IMG/VR virus record: IMGVR_UViG_3300032236_000070
Span: 1-35,312 of that record
Length of the DNA: 35,312 nt
Source of the DNA: a virus
Direction: 5' to 3' (one strand)
The translations under genes were made by a program, and so were the position numbers. A model generated the notes under the pieces. It was not told the origin of the DNA, made no database searches, and saw only the letters and a list, made by a program, of their open reading frames with translations. Positions 4,637 through 30,194 of the stretch are shown piece after piece (position 1 is the first letter of the stretch; every line of letters starts with the position of its first letter).

Positions 4637-5347
4637 ATGACTTGGGTAACTGTTGCGGTTGTTGGTGGTGGCGCTACGCTGGCTTCTGGATATATGCAAA
4701 GCCAGGCTGCTAAAGATGCAGCAAATACGGTTGCGGGCGGCGCTAGATATGCGGCGGACATTAACAAACAAATGTTTGACACTACGAACGAAAACCTTCG
4801 TCCGTACCGTGAAGCTGGCACAACCACATTAAAAGACCTTCTTACCCAAATGCCTAATTTGACAAAGGCATACACGGCAGAAGACTTTGCCCAGGGCATC
4901 GATCCAGGTTATCAATTCCGTTTGGCGCAAGGCCAAAAAGCGCTTCAAAACCAAACAAATATGGGCGGCGGCTTGATAAGCGGAAATGCTTTGCAAGGAA
5001 TGCAAGATTACACCCAGGGCCAAGCTTCTCAGGAATTTGGAAATGCATTTGCGCGAAACAGCGCTACGCAAACCAATATTTTTAACAGGCTAAAAAGCAT
5101 TGCAGATATGGGGCTGGGGGCAGCTGGAACAACTGCGGATGCTGCTACAAAAACAGGCGAAAGCATGGGATCGGCTGCAATTGCTGGCGCACAAGCCCAG
5201 GGAGCTGGTCAAATAGGCCAGGCTAAAGCTATTGGTAACACATTAACAGGCATGGCTAACTATGCAACGCTGCCATACTATATGCAGCAACCATCACCAA
5301 CTGGTTATGGAAAAGACGCATCACAATTGAATGTAAGCCAGGCATAA
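4637..5347 (+). CDS. Ejection (DNA transfer) protein, P22 gp7-like
   Basis: 236 aa, preceded by a good ribosome site (GGAGG, 4624-4629). It starts with a hydrophobic Gly-rich segment (VTVAVVGGGATLASGYMQSQAA). It then has the pattern NLRPYREAGTTTLKDLL, DPGYQFRLAQGQKAL, GGGLISGNALQGM and GQASQEFGNAFARN, typical of phage ejection/internal proteins. The C-terminal half is Ala/Gly-rich. First of three genes in the position of P22 gp7-gp20-gp16. Assignment is by motif and order. Confidence 0.78.
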   Translation: MTWVTVAVVGGGATLASGYMQSQAAKDAANTVAGGARYAADINKQMFDTTNENLRPYREAGTTTLKDLLTQMPNLTKAYTAEDFAQGIDPGYQFRLAQGQKALQNQTNMGGGLISGNALQGMQDYTQGQASQEFGNAFARNSATQTNIFNRLKSIADMGLGAAGTTADAATKTGESMGSAAIAGAQAQGAGQIGQAKAIGNTLTGMANYATLPYYMQQPSPTGYGKDASQLNVSQA

Positions 5348-13445: not shown

Positions 13446-13712
13446 CTAGAATTTAATTTCTTCGTATTCACCAGGCCTAGATTCGCCCTGGCGTTCTTCG
13501 CGTGGCTTTTTCTCATAGCAGCGAAACCAACCGTCATATTCTTTAGAAATCGGCATCGAATCCATTTTGACTTTGAATGTGAACTTTTGCAGATCAGTCC
13601 CTTCTGGACATTCGACAAACAGCGTTCCATGTTCGGCCCAGAATGTTTTCTCTTCACCAGCTGCGGTTGTGTAGGTACGGGCGGGAAATTTGATTTCGTA
13701 GGATTTTTTCAT
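13446..13712 (-). CDS. Small protein coupled to the exonuclease gene
   Basis: 88 aa, ATGA overlap with the exonuclease gene. Predicted mostly beta in the first 60 residues (YEIKFPARTYTTAAGEEKTFWAEHGTLFVE, then LQKFTFKVKMDSMPISKEYDGWFRCYE), with a charged Arg/Glu tail. A small beta-rich protein encoded with an exonuclease and an annealing protein could bind single-stranded DNA, but no family signature is visible. Confidence 0.6.
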   Translation of the reverse strand: MKKSYEIKFPARTYTTAAGEEKTFWAEHGTLFVECPEGTDLQKFTFKVKMDSMPISKEYDGWFRCYEKKPREERQGESRPGEYEEIKF

Positions 13713-14338
13713 TTTGATTCAATAATTGCATTAAGTTGTTGGACCTGGGCATCGACTTCGGCAAGAAATTTCACAATCTCCGCTTCAATTTCTGCGATAA
13801 ATTTGTCGTCACGGTCTACCCGTTTAACAAACAATTGCACTTTAGGTGGCATTCGGGGATCGAACACCACATACTGGCAATATTTACGGTCCGCACAGGC
13901 CATCTGGAATTGCATTTGCGCCAGGTAGCGCTGCGGGACTTTTTGAGTTAGTAGGGTTTCGATCATTCCCTTCGACTCAGGGCATTTGATTTCGATCATG
14001 CCTTCGCCATCGTCCAGAAGGCCATCAGGGGACGCGCCAGCCATATCAATTAATGGGTGTGGCATGAACCCTACTTCCTGGACCATCTGGCCCGTGGTGG
14101 CTTCGAAAAGACCGCGGGCAAATGGTTCTTGGTCAATACCCCATTGCATGGCGGAGCTGGTAAACCCTTCGGCCTTGGTTTTTGTAATACGTTCCAGCAC
14201 CAGCTGCGTCATGTAGGTGTCGCGGGTGGCTGCATAACCAGTTTTGGTTTTGGCGATTACATCTGCCACGCGGGATGCGGTTACTTTGCCCAAGCGGGCA
14301 GCAAACCATTCTTCGGTACGTTGTTCTATTTCGTTCAT
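13709..14338 (-). CDS. YqaJ / lambda-exo-type recombination exonuclease
   Basis: 209 aa. The N-terminus (QRTEEWFAARLGKVTASRVADVIAKTKTGY) and the core GASPDGLLDDGEGMIEIKCPES, with Asp105, Glu116 and Lys118 as the nuclease centre, are diagnostic of the YqaJ/lambda-exonuclease fold. Helix PQRYLAQMQFQMACADRKYC completes the family pattern. Such enzymes resect double-stranded ends for an annealing protein, which is encoded two genes upstream. ATGA overlaps on both sides. Confidence 0.88.
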   Translation of the reverse strand: MNEIEQRTEEWFAARLGKVTASRVADVIAKTKTGYAATRDTYMTQLVLERITKTKAEGFTSSAMQWGIDQEPFARGLFEATTGQMVQEVGFMPHPLIDMAGASPDGLLDDGEGMIEIKCPESKGMIETLLTQKVPQRYLAQMQFQMACADRKYCQYVVFDPRMPPKVQLFVKRVDRDDKFIAEIEAEIVKFLAEVDAQVQQLNAIIESK

Positions 14339-14541
14339 TCTGATCTCGCTTTCATCATTGCGTCTGCTAAATCGTAGGCTTCTGCGGCAATTCTTACGTT
14401 TGTCATCGCAGTTGATGGGTCAGAAGCACAAATTCCTTGCATAGCCTTAGCCGCAAAATAATCACGCAAATTCATGCCAGTTTGATATTTCACGCCATCG
14501 CCATAATCAACAACGATTGGAAATGCTGGTGTGTTATCCAT
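14335..14541 (-). CDS. Small conserved phage protein (MNLRDYFAAKAMQG motif)
   Basis: 68 aa from the ATG at 14541, with AAGGA about 9 nt upstream; an in-frame ATG at 14562 lies deeper in the ERF gene. It reads MDNTPAFPIVVDYGDGVKYQTGMNLRDYFAAKAMQGICAS, then a helix AAEAYDLADAMMKAR. The MNLRDYFAAKAMQG block is widespread in small phage early proteins of unknown function. Confidence 0.68.
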   Translation of the reverse strand: MDNTPAFPIVVDYGDGVKYQTGMNLRDYFAAKAMQGICASDPSTAMTNVRIAAEAYDLADAMMKARSE

Positions 14542-15106
14542 TTGTTTTTTCCTTTTTTGCACGTTCTACACGGGATTTCTTGGCGGCCATAACTTTGGCT
14601 TGCCAGGCCTGGTCGCCATTGCAAGCTTCAAACGCTGCCTGGTACGCTGCGGTTAACTCTTCGCTATTACTGGTGGCATCGATGGCAGCCAGGTGGTCCG
14701 CCATAAGTTTGTCGTTTACTTTGGGAGCTGGTCGTTTGGCTGCAGCGTTGCCATCGTCATCTTCTGGAGCAATACCACAGGCAGCCATAAGGCTGTATCG
14801 GCGGGCATACGTCAACGCGCTAGCGTATCCCTGGGGATCGTGTTTGACCGCGGGGAAGTGGACAATCCCGCATTCCAGCATTTCGCCAGATTCGTGGACA
14901 AACACGGTTTCGACCATTACGCCATCGGTGCAATCGGAATTCTTCTGCAGCAAGTAAATGCCGTTATCGTTTAACGCGTCCACAACAGCTTCCACGCAAG
15001 CGGATAGGTCAGCGTAGCGGCTGCGGAAATGCGGGTTTGTAGAGGTCTTTAAAGCTGGCCCAAAGGCCTTTTGTGCTTTTACTAGGGCGGTGGCAATGTT
15101 TTTCAT
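14534..15106 (-). CDS. erf: ERF-family single-strand annealing protein
   Basis: 190 aa, close to P22 Erf in length. Residues 1-60 (MKNIATALVKAQKAFGPALKTSTNPHFRSRYADLSA, then ALNDNGIYLLQ) and 90-120 (DPQGYASALTYARRYSLMAACGIAPEDDDGN) are the ERF signature. The C-terminal Lys/Arg-rich helix is the variable part. It should pair with the exonuclease for recombination or circularisation of the phage DNA. Start confirmed by an ATGA overlap with the gene upstream. Confidence 0.88.
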   Translation of the reverse strand: MKNIATALVKAQKAFGPALKTSTNPHFRSRYADLSACVEAVVDALNDNGIYLLQKNSDCTDGVMVETVFVHESGEMLECGIVHFPAVKHDPQGYASALTYARRYSLMAACGIAPEDDDGNAAAKRPAPKVNDKLMADHLAAIDATSNSEELTAAYQAAFEACNGDQAWQAKVMAAKKSRVERAKKEKTNG

Positions 15107-17496: not shown

Positions 17497-17655
17497 ATGA
17501 CAAAAGAGCAAGCAATTGAAAAAGCTGGTTCTGCCAGGAAGCTGGCGGAGCTGCTGGGCATAACAACTGCAGCCATTAGCCAATGGACCAACGTCCCCCA
17601 GGCTAGGGTTTGGCAGCTGCGGGTGTTGCATCCCGAATGGTTTAACGTAAAATAG
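17497..17655 (+). CDS. Cro/YdaS-like repressor
   Basis: 52 aa: MTKEQAIEKAGSARKLAELL, then GITTAAISQWTNVPQARVWQL, ending HPEWFNVK. This is the compact helix-turn-helix of Cro/YdaS proteins (AELLGITTAAISQW as the HTH). There is no ribosome site, and the ATG lies only 7 bases after the -10, so the mRNA is probably leaderless. It should bind the operator repeats and down-regulate one or both arms. No CI partner gene is visible; the divergent gene encodes an LPD29 protein instead. Confidence 0.82.
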   Translation: MTKEQAIEKAGSARKLAELLGITTAAISQWTNVPQARVWQLRVLHPEWFNVK

Positions 17656-17659
17656 TTTT

Positions 17660-17725
17660 GAACAGGGCTAGATGCGAAGTCATGAGCGCATCGAAAGGGG
17701 TTACACCTTCCCCCCGCCCTAGTTC
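17660..17725 (+). ncRNA. Candidate three-way-junction RNA element
   Basis: Between the Cro-like stop and the DUF1376 gene. P1 is 17660-17668 with 17716-17725 (9 bp with one bulged A). P2 is GATGCG/CGCATC (17671-17676/17687-17692) with a 10-nt loop. P3 is AAGG/CCTT (17695-17698/17706-17709), or alternatively GGGG with the C-run. A short TCTTTTC follows P1, then the ribosome site of the replication gene. It could be an mRNA leader, a processed small RNA or an attenuator. It is not a tRNA. Confidence 0.5.
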
Positions 17726-17755
17726 TCTTTTCAAAGGTGGGAAAAAGGTTTGCCA

Positions 17756-18520
17756 ATGCATTACTACCAATTCAATATCGGTGACTATCAAAGTCACACC
17801 GCACATTTATCCGACATTGAAGATTTAACTTATCGGCGTTTGCTTGATTGGTACTATCTTCACGAAATCCCGATACCGCTAGATTTAACTGAAACATCCA
17901 GGCAAATTCGTATGCGATCGCATAGCGATTCCATTGCGTTGGTTTTGCAAGAGTATTTCGAATGCACAGAAGATGGTTGGATTCATCACAGGGCCGACAA
18001 AGAAATTGCCAGGGCTGGAGAGAAATCTAGCAAGGCAAGCGAAAGCGCTAAAGCCCGATGGAATAAGGCTAAAGATGCGAACGCATTGCCAACGCAATCC
18101 GAAGGCAATGCTACACAAGACACATTACACATAACCAATAACCCATTACCCAATATTAAAGAAGGTAAACCTTCTTTGTCGGGAAGTGCCTTCCCGCCTT
18201 GTCCACATTCCGAATTATTAAAACTTTGGGAAAAGCATTTGCCACACCTTACCCAACCAAGAACCTGGGAAGGCAACCGCCAGGCCAATATGCGGCAGCG
18301 CTGGATTCAAGCTGGTAAACCATCGGCCTATTCCCCCGAAGGCTACAAAACCACGGAAGCTGGATTGAAGTGGTGGGATGCGTTTTTTGCCTACATTGCC
18401 AACGACACATCTTTGGCTAACGGATTTGAGACAAAAGGGCGAACGTGGCGGCCTGATTTGGAATGGATTGTGAATGCCACTAACTTTCAAAAAATCATTG
18501 ACGGAAAGTACGCCAAATGA
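17756..18520 (+). CDS. DUF1376-family replication protein
   Basis: 254 aa from the ATG at 17756 with AAGG 7 bases upstream; a TTG at 17750 is less likely. Residues 1-85 (MHYYQFNIGDYQSHTAHLSD, then YRRLLDWYYLHE, then WIHHRADKEIARA) are the DUF1376 (YdaU-like) domain. A linker and a C-terminal region with WDAFFAYIANDTSLANGF and WRPDLEWIVNATNFQKIIDGKYAK follow, the pattern of phage replication-initiation proteins. First large gene of the plus arm. No helicase or primase gene lies nearby, so host enzymes are probably recruited. Confidence 0.78.
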   Translation: MHYYQFNIGDYQSHTAHLSDIEDLTYRRLLDWYYLHEIPIPLDLTETSRQIRMRSHSDSIALVLQEYFECTEDGWIHHRADKEIARAGEKSSKASESAKARWNKAKDANALPTQSEGNATQDTLHITNNPLPNIKEGKPSLSGSAFPPCPHSELLKLWEKHLPHLTQPRTWEGNRQANMRQRWIQAGKPSAYSPEGYKTTEAGLKWWDAFFAYIANDTSLANGFETKGRTWRPDLEWIVNATNFQKIIDGKYAK

Positions 18521-23899: not shown

Positions 23900-24054
23900 A
23901 ACCAGGACTCTATGCCAACATACACAAAAAGCAAGAACGGATAGCCCGTGAAAAGGCCGAAGGCAAGCCCGTGGAACGTATGCGTAAGCCTGGCAGCAAA
24001 GGCGCACCCACAGCTGCAGCATTCAAACAATCTGCTAAGACAGCTAAAAAATGA
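23896..24054 (+). CDS. Small basic protein (52 aa) before terminase
   Basis: MKPGLYANIHKKQERIAREK, then AEGKPVERMRKPGSKGAPTA, ending FKQSAKTAKK. The LYANIHxKxxRI...MRKPGxKGAPTAxxFxxSAKTAKK pattern often occurs immediately before terminase genes in phages. Basic and probably disordered. Shares ATGA with terminase small subunit. Confidence 0.7.
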   Translation: MKPGLYANIHKKQERIAREKAEGKPVERMRKPGSKGAPTAAAFKQSAKTAKK

Positions 24055-24458
24055 CCGAAGAAGTTAAACGCCCCGTAGGACGACCAAGCTTGTATGACCC
24101 CGCACTATGCGACCAGGTAATCGAGCTAGGCAGCCAGGGTAAATCCATTGAACAAATAGCCGCAAAGCTAGGTGTTTCTACTAGGGTTATGTTCGACTGG
24201 AAGGATAGGCATCCAGAATTTATGCACGCCTTGGATCAGGCGAAGGAATTAGAGCTGGATTGGTGGGAATCGATAGCCCAAAATATGATGGTGGAAGAGA
24301 AAGACGCTGCCAAGCTAAACAGCTCGATCTGGTCCAGGTCGATGGCTGCAAGATTCCCCAAGAAGTATCGGGAAAGCACCAAAACAGAAATCACAGGCGA
24401 AAACGGCACACCGCTGCTGCAAGGCATCCAGGTCACATTTGTAAAGCCTAATGAATGA
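24051..24458 (+). CDS. terS: Terminase small subunit
   Basis: 135 aa. The N-terminal PVGRPSLYDPALCDQVIELGSQGKSIEQIAAKLGVSTRVMFDWKDRHPEF is the helix-turn-helix DNA-binding part. A helical oligomerisation region follows (ELELDWWESIAQNMM), then the C-terminal strand-rich end GIQVTFVKPNE. It recognises the packaging start site and presents DNA to the large subunit, whose gene overlaps by 8 nt. Confidence 0.85.
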   Translation: MTEEVKRPVGRPSLYDPALCDQVIELGSQGKSIEQIAAKLGVSTRVMFDWKDRHPEFMHALDQAKELELDWWESIAQNMMVEEKDAAKLNSSIWSRSMAARFPKKYRESTKTEITGENGTPLLQGIQVTFVKPNE

Positions 24459-25728
24459 CATAGTCAACCAGGCGATAGCTAAAGCGGAATTCCCAATTAA
24501 GCTCAAGGGCTTGTTTGAGAAAAGCCGCTACAAAGTCGCCTACGGTGGAAGAGGTGGTGCAAAAAGTTGGGGAATAGCCCGCGCTTTACTGATCAAAGGC
24601 GCTAAAGACCCGATCCGCATCCTATGCGCCAGGGAATTCCAAACATCAATCAAGGATTCGGTTCACAAGCTGCTATGCGACCAGATCGAAGCGCTTGGAC
24701 TGCTGGGGTTCTATGAGATAACCCAGAACAGCATCCGCGGCAAGAACGGGACAGAGTTTGCATTTGTTGGCCTACGCAACAACGTGGCAAACATAAAAAG
24801 TTATGAAGGGGTGGATATCTGTTGGGTGGAGGAGGCACAAATGACCAGCCGCCTATCCTGGAACATCCTAATCCCGACCATCCGCAAACAGGGCAGCGAG
24901 ATATGGATTAGCTTTAACCCAGAGCTAGAGACAGACGAAACATATCAGCGGTTTGTGCTAAACCCGCCCGCGGACTGCATCCTGATCAAGATCAACTGGA
25001 GCGATAACCCCTGGTTTCCAGATACATTGATGCTGGAAAAAGACGCATTGAAAGCCCGCGACCTGGAAGCATACAACCAGGTATGGGAAGGTTTATGCCG
25101 CCAATCAGTCGATGGGGCTATCTTTGCCAAAGAGCTGCAGCAAGCGGAGCTGGACGGACGATTGACTAAAGTCCCGTATGACGCAACAAAACCAGTTCAT
25201 GCCGTGTTTGACCTGGGATGGGCAGATAGCACAGCCATTTGGTTTTTGCAGTTTGTGGGCATGGAAACCAGGCTAATCCGCTACATTGAAGACAGCCAGA
25301 AGACCATTAGCCATTACCTGGCAACGATGCAAACGTTTGGTTATGTGTACGACAAGGTTTGGCTGCCCCATGACGCAGAGAACAAAACCCTGGCTGCAGC
25401 TGGTCGGTCGATTGACGACATTGTGCGGGCTGCTGGGTATAAGACGCAGATTCTGCCCCGTGTGCCGATTCTGGATTCGATCAACGCTGCCAGGACCATA
25501 TTCCCCAGCTGCTATTTCGACCGCGAGAACGCAGCCGAAGGCATCAATTGCCTACGCCATTACCGTTATGAAGTCGATCCAACAACGGGCCAGTTCAGTC
25601 GAACCCCGCTGCATGACCATTACTCACATGGGGCGGACGCATTCAGATACATTGCGCTAATGATTAAAGAACCAGCAGCCAGGAAGCCCAAGGCACAAGT
25701 TGCAATGGTCGCTGGTTGGATGGGATAA
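24451..25728 (+). CDS. terL: Terminase large subunit
   Basis: 425 aa. Walker A GGRGGAKS (32-39), Walker B ICWVEEA (123-129) and coupling motif SFNP (154-157) form the packaging ATPase. Asp254/Asp259 (FDLGWADS), Asp308 (PHDAENK) and Asp396 (YSHGADAFRY) mark the RNase-H-like nuclease. Length and motifs fit the PBSX/P22-type family that cuts headful DNA, in agreement with the circular permutation. All key residues are present. Confidence 0.92.
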   Translation: MNDIVNQAIAKAEFPIKLKGLFEKSRYKVAYGGRGGAKSWGIARALLIKGAKDPIRILCAREFQTSIKDSVHKLLCDQIEALGLLGFYEITQNSIRGKNGTEFAFVGLRNNVANIKSYEGVDICWVEEAQMTSRLSWNILIPTIRKQGSEIWISFNPELETDETYQRFVLNPPADCILIKINWSDNPWFPDTLMLEKDALKARDLEAYNQVWEGLCRQSVDGAIFAKELQQAELDGRLTKVPYDATKPVHAVFDLGWADSTAIWFLQFVGMETRLIRYIEDSQKTISHYLATMQTFGYVYDKVWLPHDAENKTLAAAGRSIDDIVRAAGYKTQILPRVPILDSINAARTIFPSCYFDRENAAEGINCLRHYRYEVDPTTGQFSRTPLHDHYSHGADAFRYIALMIKEPAARKPKAQVAMVAGWMG

Positions 25729-25748
25729 TGAATTAAAGAGGTACACCA

Positions 25749-27902
25749 ATGGCACAAACAAACGAAGCAAAAGACGGAAGAATCCAGGAAGCCATCAAGT
25801 TTTGGCATCTAGTCAATGATGCGGATTCAATGAACCGCGCCGAAGCTTTGCAAGACATTAAATTTGCAGCTGGCGACCAATGGCCCGTTGAAATACAGAA
25901 CTCGCGCAACGTGGAAGCCCGCCCTTGTTTGACCATTAACAAGATCGATGCGTACATCCGCCAGGTGACAAACCAGCAGCGTATGCAGCGCCCCAGGATC
26001 AAAGTGCAGCCAGTAAATAACCTGGCAGATTACAAGATCGCCCAGGTGATCGAAGGCATGACCAGGCACATCGAAGTGAACTCTAACGCTGACACCGCAT
26101 ACGACACCGCTTTTGACTATGCCGTGCGGATGGGTTGGGGCTTTTGGCGGATCAACACACGCTACGTTAGCGAAGATTCGTTCGACCAGGAAATATACAT
26201 CGACACGATAGACAACCCGTTTACCGTTTACTTCGATCCTAATTCCGTTCTGCCTGACGGATCGGACGCTGAAAAGTGCCTGATCACGACCATCATGGAT
26301 AAGAAGGTATTCCGCGACCATTATCCAGACGCAAACGATGGCGCTAACTTCACGCAGCGATCAACAGGTGACGACACCGCCAGCTGGATCACCAAGGAAG
26401 ACATTCGGATCGCCGAATATTTCTATGTTGAACGTGAACGCGCCAAGCTTTACCAACTAAGCGATAACACGGTCCACTTTGCCGATTCTGCTAACTTCTT
26501 CGAACGCGTGGAAGCAGCTGGTTTGTCCGTTGTGGATGAACGCGACACATTCCGCAAAGCCATTAAATGGTGCAAGATGACAGCCCTGGAAGTCCTGGAA
26601 GAGAAAACCTGGGCTGGAAAATATATCCCCGTTGTACCGTGCTACGGCGCACAAGTAATCGTGGACGACCGCCGCAAGCGCTACGGCCTGGTCCGATTTG
26701 CGAAAGACCCGCAGCGGATGTATAACTTCTGGCGCACCAGCATGACCGAATCGGTTGCGCTAGCTCCAAAGGCCAAGTGGCTGCTGGCAGAAGGCCAGGA
26801 CGAAGGGCACGAAAACGAATGGGCATTGGCTAACATCAAGTCCAGCCCCGTGCTGCGTTACAAGCAAAAAGATATTGAAGGCGTACCAGCTCCAGCTCCA
26901 CAAAGGCTGCAGCCAGAACCGCCGCCCGCTGGAATTATGGAAGCAGCTGGCGCTATCTCAGCCGATCTGCAAATGGTCCTGGGCATACTTGATCCGAACC
27001 AGCTGCCAACGGGCAACATATCTGGCAAGGCATTGGCTGGACAACAGAACCAGGTTGACCTATCGAATTTCCATTTCTACGACAACATGACCAGGTCGAT
27101 CCGTCACACGGGCAAAATCATCCTGGATTTGATTCCAAAAATCTACGACACGCACCGCGTTATGCGGATCATTGGATCGGATGGGCAGCCAGACATGACC
27201 ACGATCAACGAGAAGACAGAAGTCGGCGAAGTGCTAAACGATGTGACGGTTGGCGAATACGATGTGGTTATGGATACTGGACCAGGATTCCAAACCAAAC
27301 GCCAGCAAGCCGTGGAAGCCATGATGCCGCTGCTAACAGGCAACGAGCAGCTGTTCAATATCGCTGGCGATCTGGTGTTTAGAAACATGGACTTTCCTGG
27401 TGCGGACGTAATTGCGGACCGCCTAGCATCCATGAACCCAATGGCCCAAGTGGACGAAAAATCGGACATTCCGCCCCAGGTCCAAATGGAATTGGCAAAC
27501 AGCAAAAAGCAGCTGCAAGAAATGCAGCAGCAGCTCCAGGCCGCGCAGCTGGAGATCAACAACCGCGGACAAGTGCAGCAAATCAAAGAAGACGGTGCAA
27601 CCAAGCGCAAGCTTATGGAAGTCACCGCAAAGGCGCACAACACCGAAACGATGGCAGAGGTCAAAGTCAACGACCAAAACACCCGCGCCATCACTAGCCA
27701 GAACAAGACCGAAATCGATGCGATTGTCGAATTGTTGCTGCATCACATGGATACAAACCGCCTTATGCGCGAGATCGAAAAGCGCAATATGGAGCAAGGC
27801 CAGTATGCAACGATTGCAGCGTCAGATATTGCCGAAGGTGCAAGCCCATTTACGCAGCAGCAGCCAGAGCAGCCGCAAATGGAACAACAACCTATGCAGT
27901 AA
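25749..27902 (+). CDS. P22-type portal protein
   Basis: 717 aa, near the 725 aa of P22 gp1, with AAAGAGGT upstream. FAAGDQWPVEIQNSRNVEARPCLTINKIDAYIRQVTNQQRMQRPRIKVQPV is the typical start of this family. ISADLQMVLGILDPNQLPTGNISGKALAGQQNQVDLSNFHFYDNMTRSIRHTGKIILDLIPKIY is the clip/stem region. The C-terminus has a long Gln/Glu-rich helix (about 580-700) that matches the P22 barrel, and ends in a Gln/Pro tail. Forms the dodecameric DNA gate and binds the gp4-like protein. Confidence 0.92.
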   Translation: MAQTNEAKDGRIQEAIKFWHLVNDADSMNRAEALQDIKFAAGDQWPVEIQNSRNVEARPCLTINKIDAYIRQVTNQQRMQRPRIKVQPVNNLADYKIAQVIEGMTRHIEVNSNADTAYDTAFDYAVRMGWGFWRINTRYVSEDSFDQEIYIDTIDNPFTVYFDPNSVLPDGSDAEKCLITTIMDKKVFRDHYPDANDGANFTQRSTGDDTASWITKEDIRIAEYFYVERERAKLYQLSDNTVHFADSANFFERVEAAGLSVVDERDTFRKAIKWCKMTALEVLEEKTWAGKYIPVVPCYGAQVIVDDRRKRYGLVRFAKDPQRMYNFWRTSMTESVALAPKAKWLLAEGQDEGHENEWALANIKSSPVLRYKQKDIEGVPAPAPQRLQPEPPPAGIMEAAGAISADLQMVLGILDPNQLPTGNISGKALAGQQNQVDLSNFHFYDNMTRSIRHTGKIILDLIPKIYDTHRVMRIIGSDGQPDMTTINEKTEVGEVLNDVTVGEYDVVMDTGPGFQTKRQQAVEAMMPLLTGNEQLFNIAGDLVFRNMDFPGADVIADRLASMNPMAQVDEKSDIPPQVQMELANSKKQLQEMQQQLQAAQLEINNRGQVQQIKEDGATKRKLMEVTAKAHNTETMAEVKVNDQNTRAITSQNKTEIDAIVELLLHHMDTNRLMREIEKRNMEQGQYATIAASDIAEGASPFTQQQPEQPQMEQQPMQ

Positions 27903-27904
27903 GC

Positions 27905-27932
27905 TTGACAAGTGAGTAATTTCGGGTAATAT
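27905..27932 (+). promoter_or_regulatory. Promoter before the scaffold-coat genes
   Basis: TTGACA (27905-27910), 16-base spacer, TAATAT (27927-27932), directly after the portal stop. It would give an extra transcript for scaffold and coat, the proteins needed in highest amount. Confidence 0.68.
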
Positions 27933-27947
27933 CGCCCAAAACCCTTA

Positions 27948-27964
27948 CCCGTGGGGTTCACGGG
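27948..27964 (+). other. 5'-UTR hairpin of the scaffold transcript
   Basis: CCCGTG, loop GGGTT, CACGGG form a 6-bp perfect stem about 10-15 bases after the expected transcription start. There is no U-run, so it is a leader structure rather than a terminator; it may protect the mRNA 5' end. Confidence 0.5.
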
Positions 27965-27986
27965 GCAAATTCTTTGAGGAAACTCA

Positions 27987-28907
27987 ATGTCAGAAGTAGC
28001 AGAACGACTTGCAGCCAATGTGGTTACAAGTGAAAATTTAGCCGAATTTAACGCCAAGAAATTGGGTTTAGCTGATCCAGAACCGAACCAGGCCGCGGCT
28101 GCTGTTGAGGAAACTCCAGCAGAACCGACTGATGAGGTGGTCCAGAGTGAACCAAATGGTGAAGATGAAGCGAAAGCAACGGAAGAACGCAAGCCCAACC
28201 CAAAGTTGGAGAAGCGGTTTTCACAGATTACAAAAGAGCGCGAATCAGCACGGGAAGAGGCCCGAAGGGAACGCGAACTAAGGGAATCTTTGGAAGCCCA
28301 GGTCAGGGAGCTACAAAACAAGGTGCAGCCAACCGCTGAACCAAAGTTTGAAGCAGAACCGAAGCCAGAGCAATTTACCGATATGTATGAGTACCAACAG
28401 GCGCTCATAGATTACAAGGTAGATCAGCGATTAGGGGAAGAGAAGCAGAAGGAAGCAAATGCCAGGGCAGAAGCCGAACGTCAGAAGGTGATCAACACCT
28501 GGGCGAAACGGGTTGAAGCTGCCAAGTCAGAGATTCCAGACTTTGAAGACATGGTCGGATCAGCAGACGTTGCGGTAAGCAATGAAGTGCGCGATGCGAT
28601 TTTTGAATCAGAGGTTGGACCTCGCGTTTTGTATCACCTGGCTGAAAATCCCGATCTCGCGGAAAAGCTCAACGGCATGACAATGACCGCAGCTTTGAGA
28701 ATGATTGGTAAATTGGAGTCGCAATTCGAGAAAAAACCCGAAGAGCCATTGCAGAAAACCGCTGTTAACAAAAGTAAAGCACCAGCACCGATTAACCCTA
28801 TCAGATCGGCAGCCAACGGGCGAGATGTGAACCTGACCAGCGATGGTCAATTCCACGGTTCATATCAAGCTTGGAAAGCAGCACGACTTGCTGGGCGAAT
28901 CCGCTAG
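27987..28907 (+). CDS. Scaffolding protein
   Basis: 306 aa, close to the 303 aa of P22 gp8. Acidic N-terminal third (EETPAEPTDEVVQSEPNGEDEAKA), a strongly charged coiled coil at about 65-115 (KLEKRFSQITKERESAREEARRERELRESLEAQVREL), a second helical region near 145-175, and a basic C-terminus where P22 scaffold contacts coat. Located between portal and coat. Directs procapsid assembly and is then released or degraded. Confidence 0.85.
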   Translation: MSEVAERLAANVVTSENLAEFNAKKLGLADPEPNQAAAAVEETPAEPTDEVVQSEPNGEDEAKATEERKPNPKLEKRFSQITKERESAREEARRERELRESLEAQVRELQNKVQPTAEPKFEAEPKPEQFTDMYEYQQALIDYKVDQRLGEEKQKEANARAEAERQKVINTWAKRVEAAKSEIPDFEDMVGSADVAVSNEVRDAIFESEVGPRVLYHLAENPDLAEKLNGMTMTAALRMIGKLESQFEKKPEEPLQKTAVNKSKAPAPINPIRSAANGRDVNLTSDGQFHGSYQAWKAARLAGRIR

Positions 28908-28946
28908 TGAAACAAACGCAACAATCCAACATTTGGAGAAACTTAA

Positions 28947-30194
28947 ATGGCAAATAATTTATTGACGATCAGCATGATCACTAATGAGGCCTTAATGGTC
29001 TTGGAAAACGAGTTGACCTTTTCGGGCCAAGTCGATCGCAACTATGATGATCAGTTCGCGGTCACAGGTGCGAAAATTGGGGCAACTTTGAATGTACGCC
29101 GTCCTGGTCGTTTCGTTGGAACTACTGGTCCAGCATTGAACGTTGAAGACTTTAACGAGACTTCAGTACCCGTTACTTTGTCAACCCAGTTCCACGTTGA
29201 CACCCAATTTACTAGCCAAGACCTGGCTTTGTCATTGGACGCATTTTCGGATCGCATTCTCAAACCCGCGGTGGCTGCCATAGCCAATAAGGTGGACTTT
29301 GACGGCCTGACAATGGCTAAGAACAACACCGCCAACATCGTTGGCACAGCTGGCACACCCCCAACTGGTCTTATTACATATTTGACCGCTGGCGCTTATC
29401 TTGATTCTGAAGGCGCACCACGCGATGGTCGCCGTTCATGCATCATCGAACCATTTACATCTGCAACTATCGTTGACAGCTTAAAAGGTTTGTTCATGCC
29501 ATCGGACAAAATCAGCGATCAATACAGCAAAGGCATGATGGGCCGCGATTCCGCTGGCGTTTCATGGTACATGGACCAAAACGTTGTGGCACAAACATTC
29601 GGTTCTTATGCGACCGCTACTTTGTCTTGCAACACATCAACCGCAACTGGTTTCCTGACTTCTGGTTGGGCATCAACTTCTACCATTGCTTTGACCGCAG
29701 CGACTGCTACTGCTGGTTTGAAACAAGGTGACGTTATCCAGATCGCTGGTGTGTACGCCGTCAACCCACAAAACCGCCAGGCTTACGGCAGCAACAAGCT
29801 CCGTAACTTCGTGGTGACTTCGCCCGTGACCGTTGCAACTTCTGGTACTACTTCAGTAACAGTTAGCCCCGCAATCATCACAGCTGGTCAGTTCCAGAAC
29901 GTGTCAATCCCAACTACAAACTCTGCAGCTGTTGTAACTCCATTTAATAATACTGGAACAGTAAGTCCGCAGAATATTGTAATGCATAAGAATGCATTTT
30001 GCTTGGCAACGGCAGATTTAGAGCTTCCAGACGGAGTCCATTTTGCTGGACGCGCTAGTGATAAAGAATTAGGTTTGTCCTTGCGTGTAGTACGCCAGTA
30101 TACAATTAACAATGATAGTATTCCTACTCGCGTTGATGTGTTGTATGGCTGGGCGCCTTTGTACCCTGAGTTGGCTTGCCGCGTTGCAGCCTAA
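28947..30194 (+). CDS. Major capsid protein, P22 coat type
   Basis: 415 aa (P22 coat 430 aa). MANNLLTISMITNEALMVLENELTFSGQVDRNYDDQFAVTGAKIGATLNVRRPGRF is the N-arm and start of the HK97 fold in the P22 coat family. Residues about 225-345, with GDVIQIAGVYAVNPQNRQAYG and LRNFVVTSPVTV, correspond to the P22 insertion (I) domain. The C-terminus YTINNDSIPTRVDVLYGWAPLYPELACRVAA closes the fold. Codon use here is more G+C-rich than in the fibre genes. Likely client of the phage GroES. Confidence 0.92.
   Translation: MANNLLTISMITNEALMVLENELTFSGQVDRNYDDQFAVTGAKIGATLNVRRPGRFVGTTGPALNVEDFNETSVPVTLSTQFHVDTQFTSQDLALSLDAFSDRILKPAVAAIANKVDFDGLTMAKNNTANIVGTAGTPPTGLITYLTAGAYLDSEGAPRDGRRSCIIEPFTSATIVDSLKGLFMPSDKISDQYSKGMMGRDSAGVSWYMDQNVVAQTFGSYATATLSCNTSTATGFLTSGWASTSTIALTAATATAGLKQGDVIQIAGVYAVNPQNRQAYGSNKLRNFVVTSPVTVATSGTTSVTVSPAIITAGQFQNVSIPTTNSAAVVTPFNNTGTVSPQNIVMHKNAFCLATADLELPDGVHFAGRASDKELGLSLRVVRQYTINNDSIPTRVDVLYGWAPLYPELACRVAA

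Follow-up and report, generated by a model that had tools for sequence, protein, structure and literature searches.

A divergent phage int-alpA-type RNA as a candidate antisense brake on a replication gene

The window analyzed here is the whole 35,312-nt stretch of IMG/VR virus record IMGVR_UViG_3300032236_000070, numbered from its first nucleotide. On its plus strand, the gene for a P22 Cro-like/YdaS-like helix-turn-helix (HTH) protein is followed by a 66-nt structured RNA and then by the gene for a DUF1376/primosomal replication protein, which is presumed to be the regulated gene (Table 1). The replication gene most likely begins at ATG 17756 and not at TTG 17750, because the tblastn matches of most homologues begin at that methionine. 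The first-pass annotation had described a T-rich stretch after the RNA and then the ribosome-binding site (RBS) of the DUF1376 gene; its statement about the RBS is right, and the likely start codon can now be added to it. Elsewhere in the window, at 24051-30194 and 13709-15106, lie a packaging/head module (terminase, portal, scaffold, coat), a DNA ejection protein and a YqaJ exonuclease/Erf pair on the minus strand.

Table 1. Features of the leader between the Cro-like and replication genes (window coordinates)
Feature	Position	Strand	Basis and remarks
P22 Cro-like/YdaS-like HTH protein	17497..17655	+	PF14549, E 1.7e-12; 3′ end carries the promoter of the RNA
Predicted promoter	17626..17653	+	Weak -35 TTGCAT (17626-17631), 16-nt spacer, -10 TAAAAT (17648-17653); read in the sequence
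int-alpA-like three-way-junction RNA	17660..17725	+	Folding; covariation; model R1, 69.3 bits; RF02996, 28.8 bits, E 4.3e-4
P1, 5′ strand	17660..17668	+	Partner 17716-17725; variable P1 pair paired in 115/115
Hairpin 1 (H1), 6 bp	17671..17692	+	Apical loop AAGUCAUGAG with self-complementary UCAUGA; 5/6 pairs change on both sides
Hairpin 3 (H3)	17697..17713	+	Loop UUACACCUU (17701-17709), the putative antisense element, core CACCUU (17704-17709)
P1, 3′ strand	17716..17725	+	Pairing and covariation, as for the 5′ strand
U-rich tract after P1	17726..17732	+	A short RNA might end here; weak
Target 1 (T1), AAGGUG	17734..17739	+	Complementary to H3 loop; loop-T1 covariation 0/20,000, z -14.0
Target 2 (T2), AAGGU	17745..17749	+	Shine-Dalgarno (SD) of the replication gene; complementary to H3 loop; covariation 0/20,000, z -12.2
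DUF1376/primosomal replication protein	17756..18520	+	PF07120, E 9e-23; PHROG primosomal/O-like replication

Both direct reading and folding of the RNA yield a three-way junction formed by P1, H1 and H3, in agreement with the closed junction, 9-bp stem with a bulge and perfect 6-bp hairpin that had been drawn by eye. P1 pairs GAAC-A-GGGC with GCCC-U-(A)-GUUC to give 9 bp and one bulged A; H1 is the perfect hairpin GATGCG/CGCATC (17671-17676 / 17687-17692), and H3 is closed by GGGG/CCCC (17697-17700 / 17710-17713) beneath the loop TTACACCTT at 17701-17709. The predicted minimum free energy is -24.4 kcal/mol, compared with -15.9 ± 3.1 for shuffled sequences (z -2.78; 2 of 200 shuffles equally good), and the same three-way junction is kept in the minimum free energy fold of a longer leader. 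Taken alone, a z of this size proves little, and homology was used as the test. Across the whole window the RNA occurs at its own place only, with no further copies.

Homologues of the RNA stand directly 5′ of a replication gene in phage leaders, of which more than 110 are distinct; most come from freshwater contigs. With the DUF1376 protein (17756-18520) as query, IMG/VR yielded 80 loci, in which about 50 distinct leaders display the same elements immediately 5′ of the gene, in the shared order GAAAC - NGGC - UA - H1 - GAAAA - H3 - CU - GCCN - GUUUC. When viral contigs were scanned with a pattern of this scaffold that leaves out the letters of the loop, at least 120 stretches matched; among the matches listed there were 77 distinct RNAs in 80 loci, nearly all just 5′ of a replication gene. 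Within the junction, CUAG, GAAA and CUGCC hardly vary across the family.

The stems vary in a compensatory manner, more so than in shuffled alignments. When 63 distinct RNAs are aligned, 98.3% of the pair cells are paired (82% after shuffling and 34-60% with slid partners), 128 cells carry double changes versus 36.6 ± 4.9 after shuffling (0/500), and the covariation score is 0.454 versus 0.135. None of 500 shuffles reached the observed values for pairing, double-change cells, pair types or covariation; the number of pairs with changes on both sides, seven, was reached by 18 of the 500. The middle pair of the H3 stem is CG in 31 sequences, AU in 18, GC in 13 and UA in one, and is thus paired in 100% of the alignment. 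Direct parsing gives the same picture in 115 RNAs, with a variable P1 pair that appears as CG, AT, TA, GC or GT and a middle H3 pair that appears as AT, CG, GC or TA, each paired in 115/115. Because compensatory changes conserve the structure in 63 distinct homologues, the fold is more than chance. The search for compensatory stem changes among homologues that had been suggested beforehand was therefore passed strongly, and the proposal of a conserved structured RNA between the Cro-like and replication genes is borne out.

A further proposal, that mutually exclusive pairings of a G-run and a C-run in the third arm would act as a switch, is not supported. In most members H3 is closed by only 3 bp; among the 115 parsed RNAs it is a 3-bp stem in which a fourth pair is possible in 15, and the alternative register is confined to the window and its nearest relatives. 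The two-register switch was dropped for this lack of conservation.

The family appears to be carried by uncultured phages. A nucleotide search of named phages matched the start of DUF1376 and not the RNA, ten named DUF1376 phages, including Methylophilaceae phage P19250A, gave no RNA match near the gene, and the phage-type RNA pattern found nothing in 84,980 bacterial and archaeal species; these searches thus returned no host or cultured phage with the RNA. We know of no lysogen.

The first-pass annotation knew of no named RNA family that the structure matched. No Rfam family reaches its own cut-off in the window, but a permissive search matched the region end to end to int-alpA (RF02996) at 28.8 bits (E 4.3e-4 in 401 nt), below the gathering score of 35.8 bits. 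Seven of 20 close phage relatives score at or above this threshold. The reciprocal comparison gives the same answer: R1, a covariance model of the phage RNAs to which the window scores 69.3 bits, matches three Escherichia coli int-alpA RNAs (E 9e-5, 1.6e-4 and 3e-3) and, over 252 genomes, found two sites only, both of them int-alpA RNAs called by Rfam itself. The junction letters of int-alpA (CUAG, CGAAAA, CU) are present in the window RNA, as judged from the alignment to the Rfam model and the reciprocal R1 matches. Because the covariance-model matches are reciprocal and 7/20 relatives lie above the cut-off, these comparisons identify the window RNA as a divergent phage branch of int-alpA, homologous to the bacterial RNAs.

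The family is named for its place between the integrase and alpA genes and is said to have been first described by Weinberg in 2017; to our knowledge, no function or target of it has been published. A literature search, whose scope did not extend to the original family description, returned one paper with int-alpA, as a table entry (PMC12370729), and none naming RF02996. The phage and bacterial RNAs share the three-way junction, the junction letters UA, GAAAA and CU, and the loop-T1-T2 design described below. They differ in that the phage-type RNA sits 5′ of a replication gene and not between int and alpA, has a longer H1, and has a -10 box at the base of its stem. In the window, the neighbors are the Cro-like and DUF1376 replication genes, and neither an integrase nor AlpA was found among the proteins searched, a subset of its ORFs.

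The Cro-like gene and the predicted promoter overlap at the 3′ end of the gene, and the -10 box, TAAAAT at 17648-17653, is positioned such that transcription should start at or next to G17660, the first base of P1. This spacing is a property of the family: a TAnnnT hexamer lies exactly -11 from the 5′ base of P1 (the first G) in 82 of 102 distinct upstream regions, and a match of at least four of six positions to a -10 box occurs at -13..-10 in 96/102, with 11.6 expected from shuffles. The upstream sequence around this fixed-distance box is otherwise variable. On this basis, the RNA seems more likely to be initiated at a promoter of its own than to be processed from the first plus-arm transcript, as had been entertained earlier. 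At the other end of the RNA, the fraction of T across the family is 0.47 in the 8 nt after P1 versus 0.25 further downstream. Since the U-rich tract is weak and a consensus scan predicted no intrinsic terminator after P1 or in the leader, a free short RNA is not assured.

The main new result is that the loop of H3 is complementary to T1 and T2 and covaries with both. In an initial test of 25 loops, the loops matched their own leaders better than those of others at both the best and the second-best site (0/20,000 permutations). With 57 distinct loops, the mean duplex energy with the half of the leader containing T1 is -9.33 kcal/mol for a loop and its own leader versus -5.64 for swapped leaders (z -14.0), and for the T2 half -8.05 versus -4.93 kcal/mol (z -12.2), neither difference being reached in 20,000 permutations; related loops are not fully independent, even though each distinct loop entered once and near relatives are among the swaps. 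Control regions lack this complementarity (z +2.7 for the 40 nt upstream, z -1.2 for the first 40 nt of the coding sequence), and there is no third target 5′ of the RNA like that of P4.

Both sites occupy regular positions. T1 starts a median of 6 nt (IQR 5-7) after P1 and offers at least five pairs in 111/111 leaders, and T2 ends a median of 6 nt (IQR 4-8) before the start codon, keeping the spacing of an SD, with at least four pairs in 93/111; complementarity and regularity of placement are thus both greater for T1. The words themselves differ widely, as in L009 (loop CCCACC, partners GGGUGG and GUGGG), L008 (ACCUCC; GGAGGU and GAGG), L040 (CCGCAC(CC); GGGUGC and GUGCGG) and L021 (AACUCCC; GGGAG and GGAGUU). 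Within the window, some other RBS regions pair with the loop about equally well or better (for example, that of the gene at 4637 at -10.1 kcal/mol versus -8.8 for the replication gene), and therefore the window alone would not single out the replication gene; the predicted specificity rests on covariation across the family. When the closed RNA is cofolded with its target, no gain is predicted, and therefore pairing must begin at the loop or need a chaperone.

The same design is seen in bacterial int-alpA RNAs. Those collected by the scaffold pattern (27 loops) covary with T1 at 0/20,000 and with T2 at 21/20,000, and those found with the Rfam model only (274 genomes of one class, 35 above the cut-off; the parser read 26 loops and missed the other 23) give 0/20,000 for both targets. 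Because independent bacterial sets exhibit the same covariation, complementarity to two targets is, as far as sequence comparison can say, a property of int-alpA RNAs at large. Three independent sets, with two targets for each RNA, make the evidence for pairing unusually strong for a purely computational case. We know of no published statement of this complementarity, and priority is not established.

Among the phages, the loop turns over rapidly. Of 49 phage pairs whose replication proteins are 85-95% identical over the first 120 aa, 40 have different antisense loops, and L008 and L009, which are 98% identical over the same span, nevertheless differ in loop, T1 and T2 alike; conversely, an identical loop recurs 5′ of distant replication proteins. 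The gene that follows the RNA is also exchangeable, encoding DUF1376 or an unrelated lambda O-like or other replication initiator (PHROGs; members lacking Pfam DUF1376). In two leaders, the RNA and DUF1376 are separated by an inserted gene of 76-77 aa (MATLTLKK...; L034 2771-2998, L035 2397-2627). The RNA sits 5′ of the insert, whose own RBS is T2, and T2 thus follows whichever gene comes first; the inserted protein of L034 has no Pfam or PHROG match. A separate case is L017 (2850-3010), in which the DUF1376 leader contains no int-alpA-type RNA and has instead a different hairpin-rich, terminator-like leader that holds the inverted repeat CCCCUGAA / UUCAGGGG.

Comparison with known antisense systems provides a framework for these observations. 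In plasmids, copy-number antisense RNAs of the RNAI and CopA type limit replication, and their loops define incompatibility. The likeness of the phage RNA to these is one of function and by analogy only: RNAI and CopA are transcribed from the strand opposite their target, whereas the phage RNA lies on the same strand and only a word of 6-8 nt is complementary. The C4 RNAs of P1/P7 and the CI RNA of P4 work in a similar way, as three-stem phage RNAs of about 70-80 nt with loop words complementary to targets, one of them over an RBS. P4 CI is an antisense RNA that guards the replication genes by way of two complementary sites and premature termination (PMC4825925), and C4 of P1/P7 blocks the RBS of ant, a 4-nt difference in the loop preventing cross-action and setting heteroimmunity (PMC5320573, PMC12197685).

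A loop complementary to two sites, including a downstream RBS, is likewise found in the window RNA family, as the T1 and T2 covariation indicates. There are nonetheless differences, in that C4 and CI have two antisense words (a′ and b′), one target on each side and ends trimmed by RNase P, whereas the window RNA has one antisense loop, both targets downstream and a predicted promoter of its own. Membership in the C4/CI family was considered and dropped: C4 (RF01695) has no match at gathering in the window and none at E<=10 in the region, and P4 CI, the positive control, matches the C4 model at 74.9 bits. The likeness would then be a shared way of working and not homology.

Given the structure, its position, the promoter-like box and the two-target complementarity with its concerted change, as observed in the sequences, we consider it likely that the RNA is a divergent int-alpA-type antisense RNA that acts as a brake on the replication gene, with cross-phage immunity. 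We infer the course of events, from transcription and the 3′ end of the short RNA to action in trans, the sign of repression, the role of T1 and immunity, as follows. From the promoter located at the 3′ end of the Cro-like gene, a transcript would start at the 5′ base of the three-way junction, in which the H3 loop would display an antisense word of 6-8 nt for T1, just after the structure, and for T2, the SD. After termination or cleavage at the U-rich tract, the short RNA would bind replication mRNAs in trans at T2 and probably also at T1, and this pairing could block translation, provoke termination or both, such that less replication protein is made as phage copies rise. Co-infecting phages with the same loop word would be repressed (homoimmunity) and those with other words would escape (heteroimmunity). 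Fast, concerted change of word and targets is what selection for immunity or incompatibility would give. In read-through transcripts, T1 may sequester the H3 loop of the same mRNA, so that the SD stays accessible; T1 could be such a cis decoy, a second docking site or a trigger of termination. The roles in replication control or as a trans-acting sRNA that had been listed as possible from the sequence alone are in keeping with a loop antisense to T1 and to the RBS of the replication gene.

A stretch of about 50 nt in a single leader contains all of the pairing partners, and conceivably no diffusible RNA is involved: the H3 loop would pair with T1, leaving the SD free (ON), or with T2, masking the SD (OFF), and the choice might be influenced by a ligand, a protein or the ribosome on the conserved junction (UA, GAAAA, CU). 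The near invariance of CUAG, GAAA and CUGCC and the lack of an evident terminator would suit such a cis-only switch, but it offers no reason for a loop and two targets, one of them the SD, to change together between replication proteins that are 85-98% identical, and the promoter-like box at the base of the stem fits a discrete RNA. We think a cis-only switch unlikely; because loop, T1 and T2 change together among near-identical replication proteins, action in trans is favored over action in cis.

The main event might instead be termination, with the short RNA, or the loop in cis, acting on nascent T1 to bring about Rho-dependent or intrinsic termination and the overlap of T2 with the SD being secondary. 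The greater complementarity and more regular placement of T1 point this way, as does the premature termination by which P4 CI stops expression of the P4 replication genes (compare seqC; PMC4825925). Yet T2 covaries too and keeps its SD spacing, and no terminator structure is seen in the leader, which makes this account quite improbable. Very improbable indeed is a reading of the loop, T1 and T2 words as DNA sites, for example operators or iterons recognized by a repressor or a replication protein with changing specificity, with the hairpins incidental. Three copies of a 6-7 bp word do occur beside the Cro-like and replication genes; however, the stems covary as RNA pairs, the inverted copy always occupies the apical loop of H3, the position of T2 is set by the start codon and not by DNA geometry, and the same design exists in bacterial int-alpA RNAs beside quite different genes.

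The RNA represents a divergent phage form of int-alpA, a known family that still lacks an explanation, and there is strong evidence that it works on phage replication genes in the manner of C4. In the antisense reading, int-alpA, a family with no function known to us, gains a testable one, and common uncultured freshwater phages would have an antisense brake on their replication initiators. If action in trans is true, metagenomes could reveal phage co-infection groups directly through a loop of 6-8 nt, and there would be a second phage RNA scaffold doing the job of C4/CI.

A wider conjecture, which we hold tentatively and regard as doubtful as a whole, is that all int-alpA RNAs are antisense RNAs with two targets, sharing a constant scaffold into which different identity words of 6-8 nt can be exchanged, each matching T1 and the SD of the next gene. 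Freshwater phages would diversify this word fast, as an immunity or incompatibility code on replication initiators; T1 would neutralize the mRNA's own copy; and self-complementary H1 loops would dock the free RNA on the H1 loop of the leader.

The apical loops of H1 (17677-17686 in the window; L002-L161 among the phages) contain off-axis self-complementary words such as UCAUGA, UAGCUA, UAAUUA and UGAUC. Among 20 distinct H1 loops of at least 8 nt, a 6-nt palindrome is present in 11 (about 9% expected) and a 4-nt palindrome in 18 (43% expected). A kissing dimer of the free RNA with the copy in the mRNA leader is possible. Similar words occur in the bacterial int-alpA RNAs L225, L253 and L270. 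Outside Proteobacteria, int-alpA-like RNAs with a T1-like word were found by the scaffold pattern in Bacillota (L254, Neobacillus; L276, Brevibacillus). Finally, both types of antisense RNA, int-alpA and C4, occur in one E. coli island (L202, NZ_CP027586 2133667-2138712), in which an int-alpA RNA is accompanied by two tandem C4 / isrK / c4-a1b1 sets around Icd-like genes.
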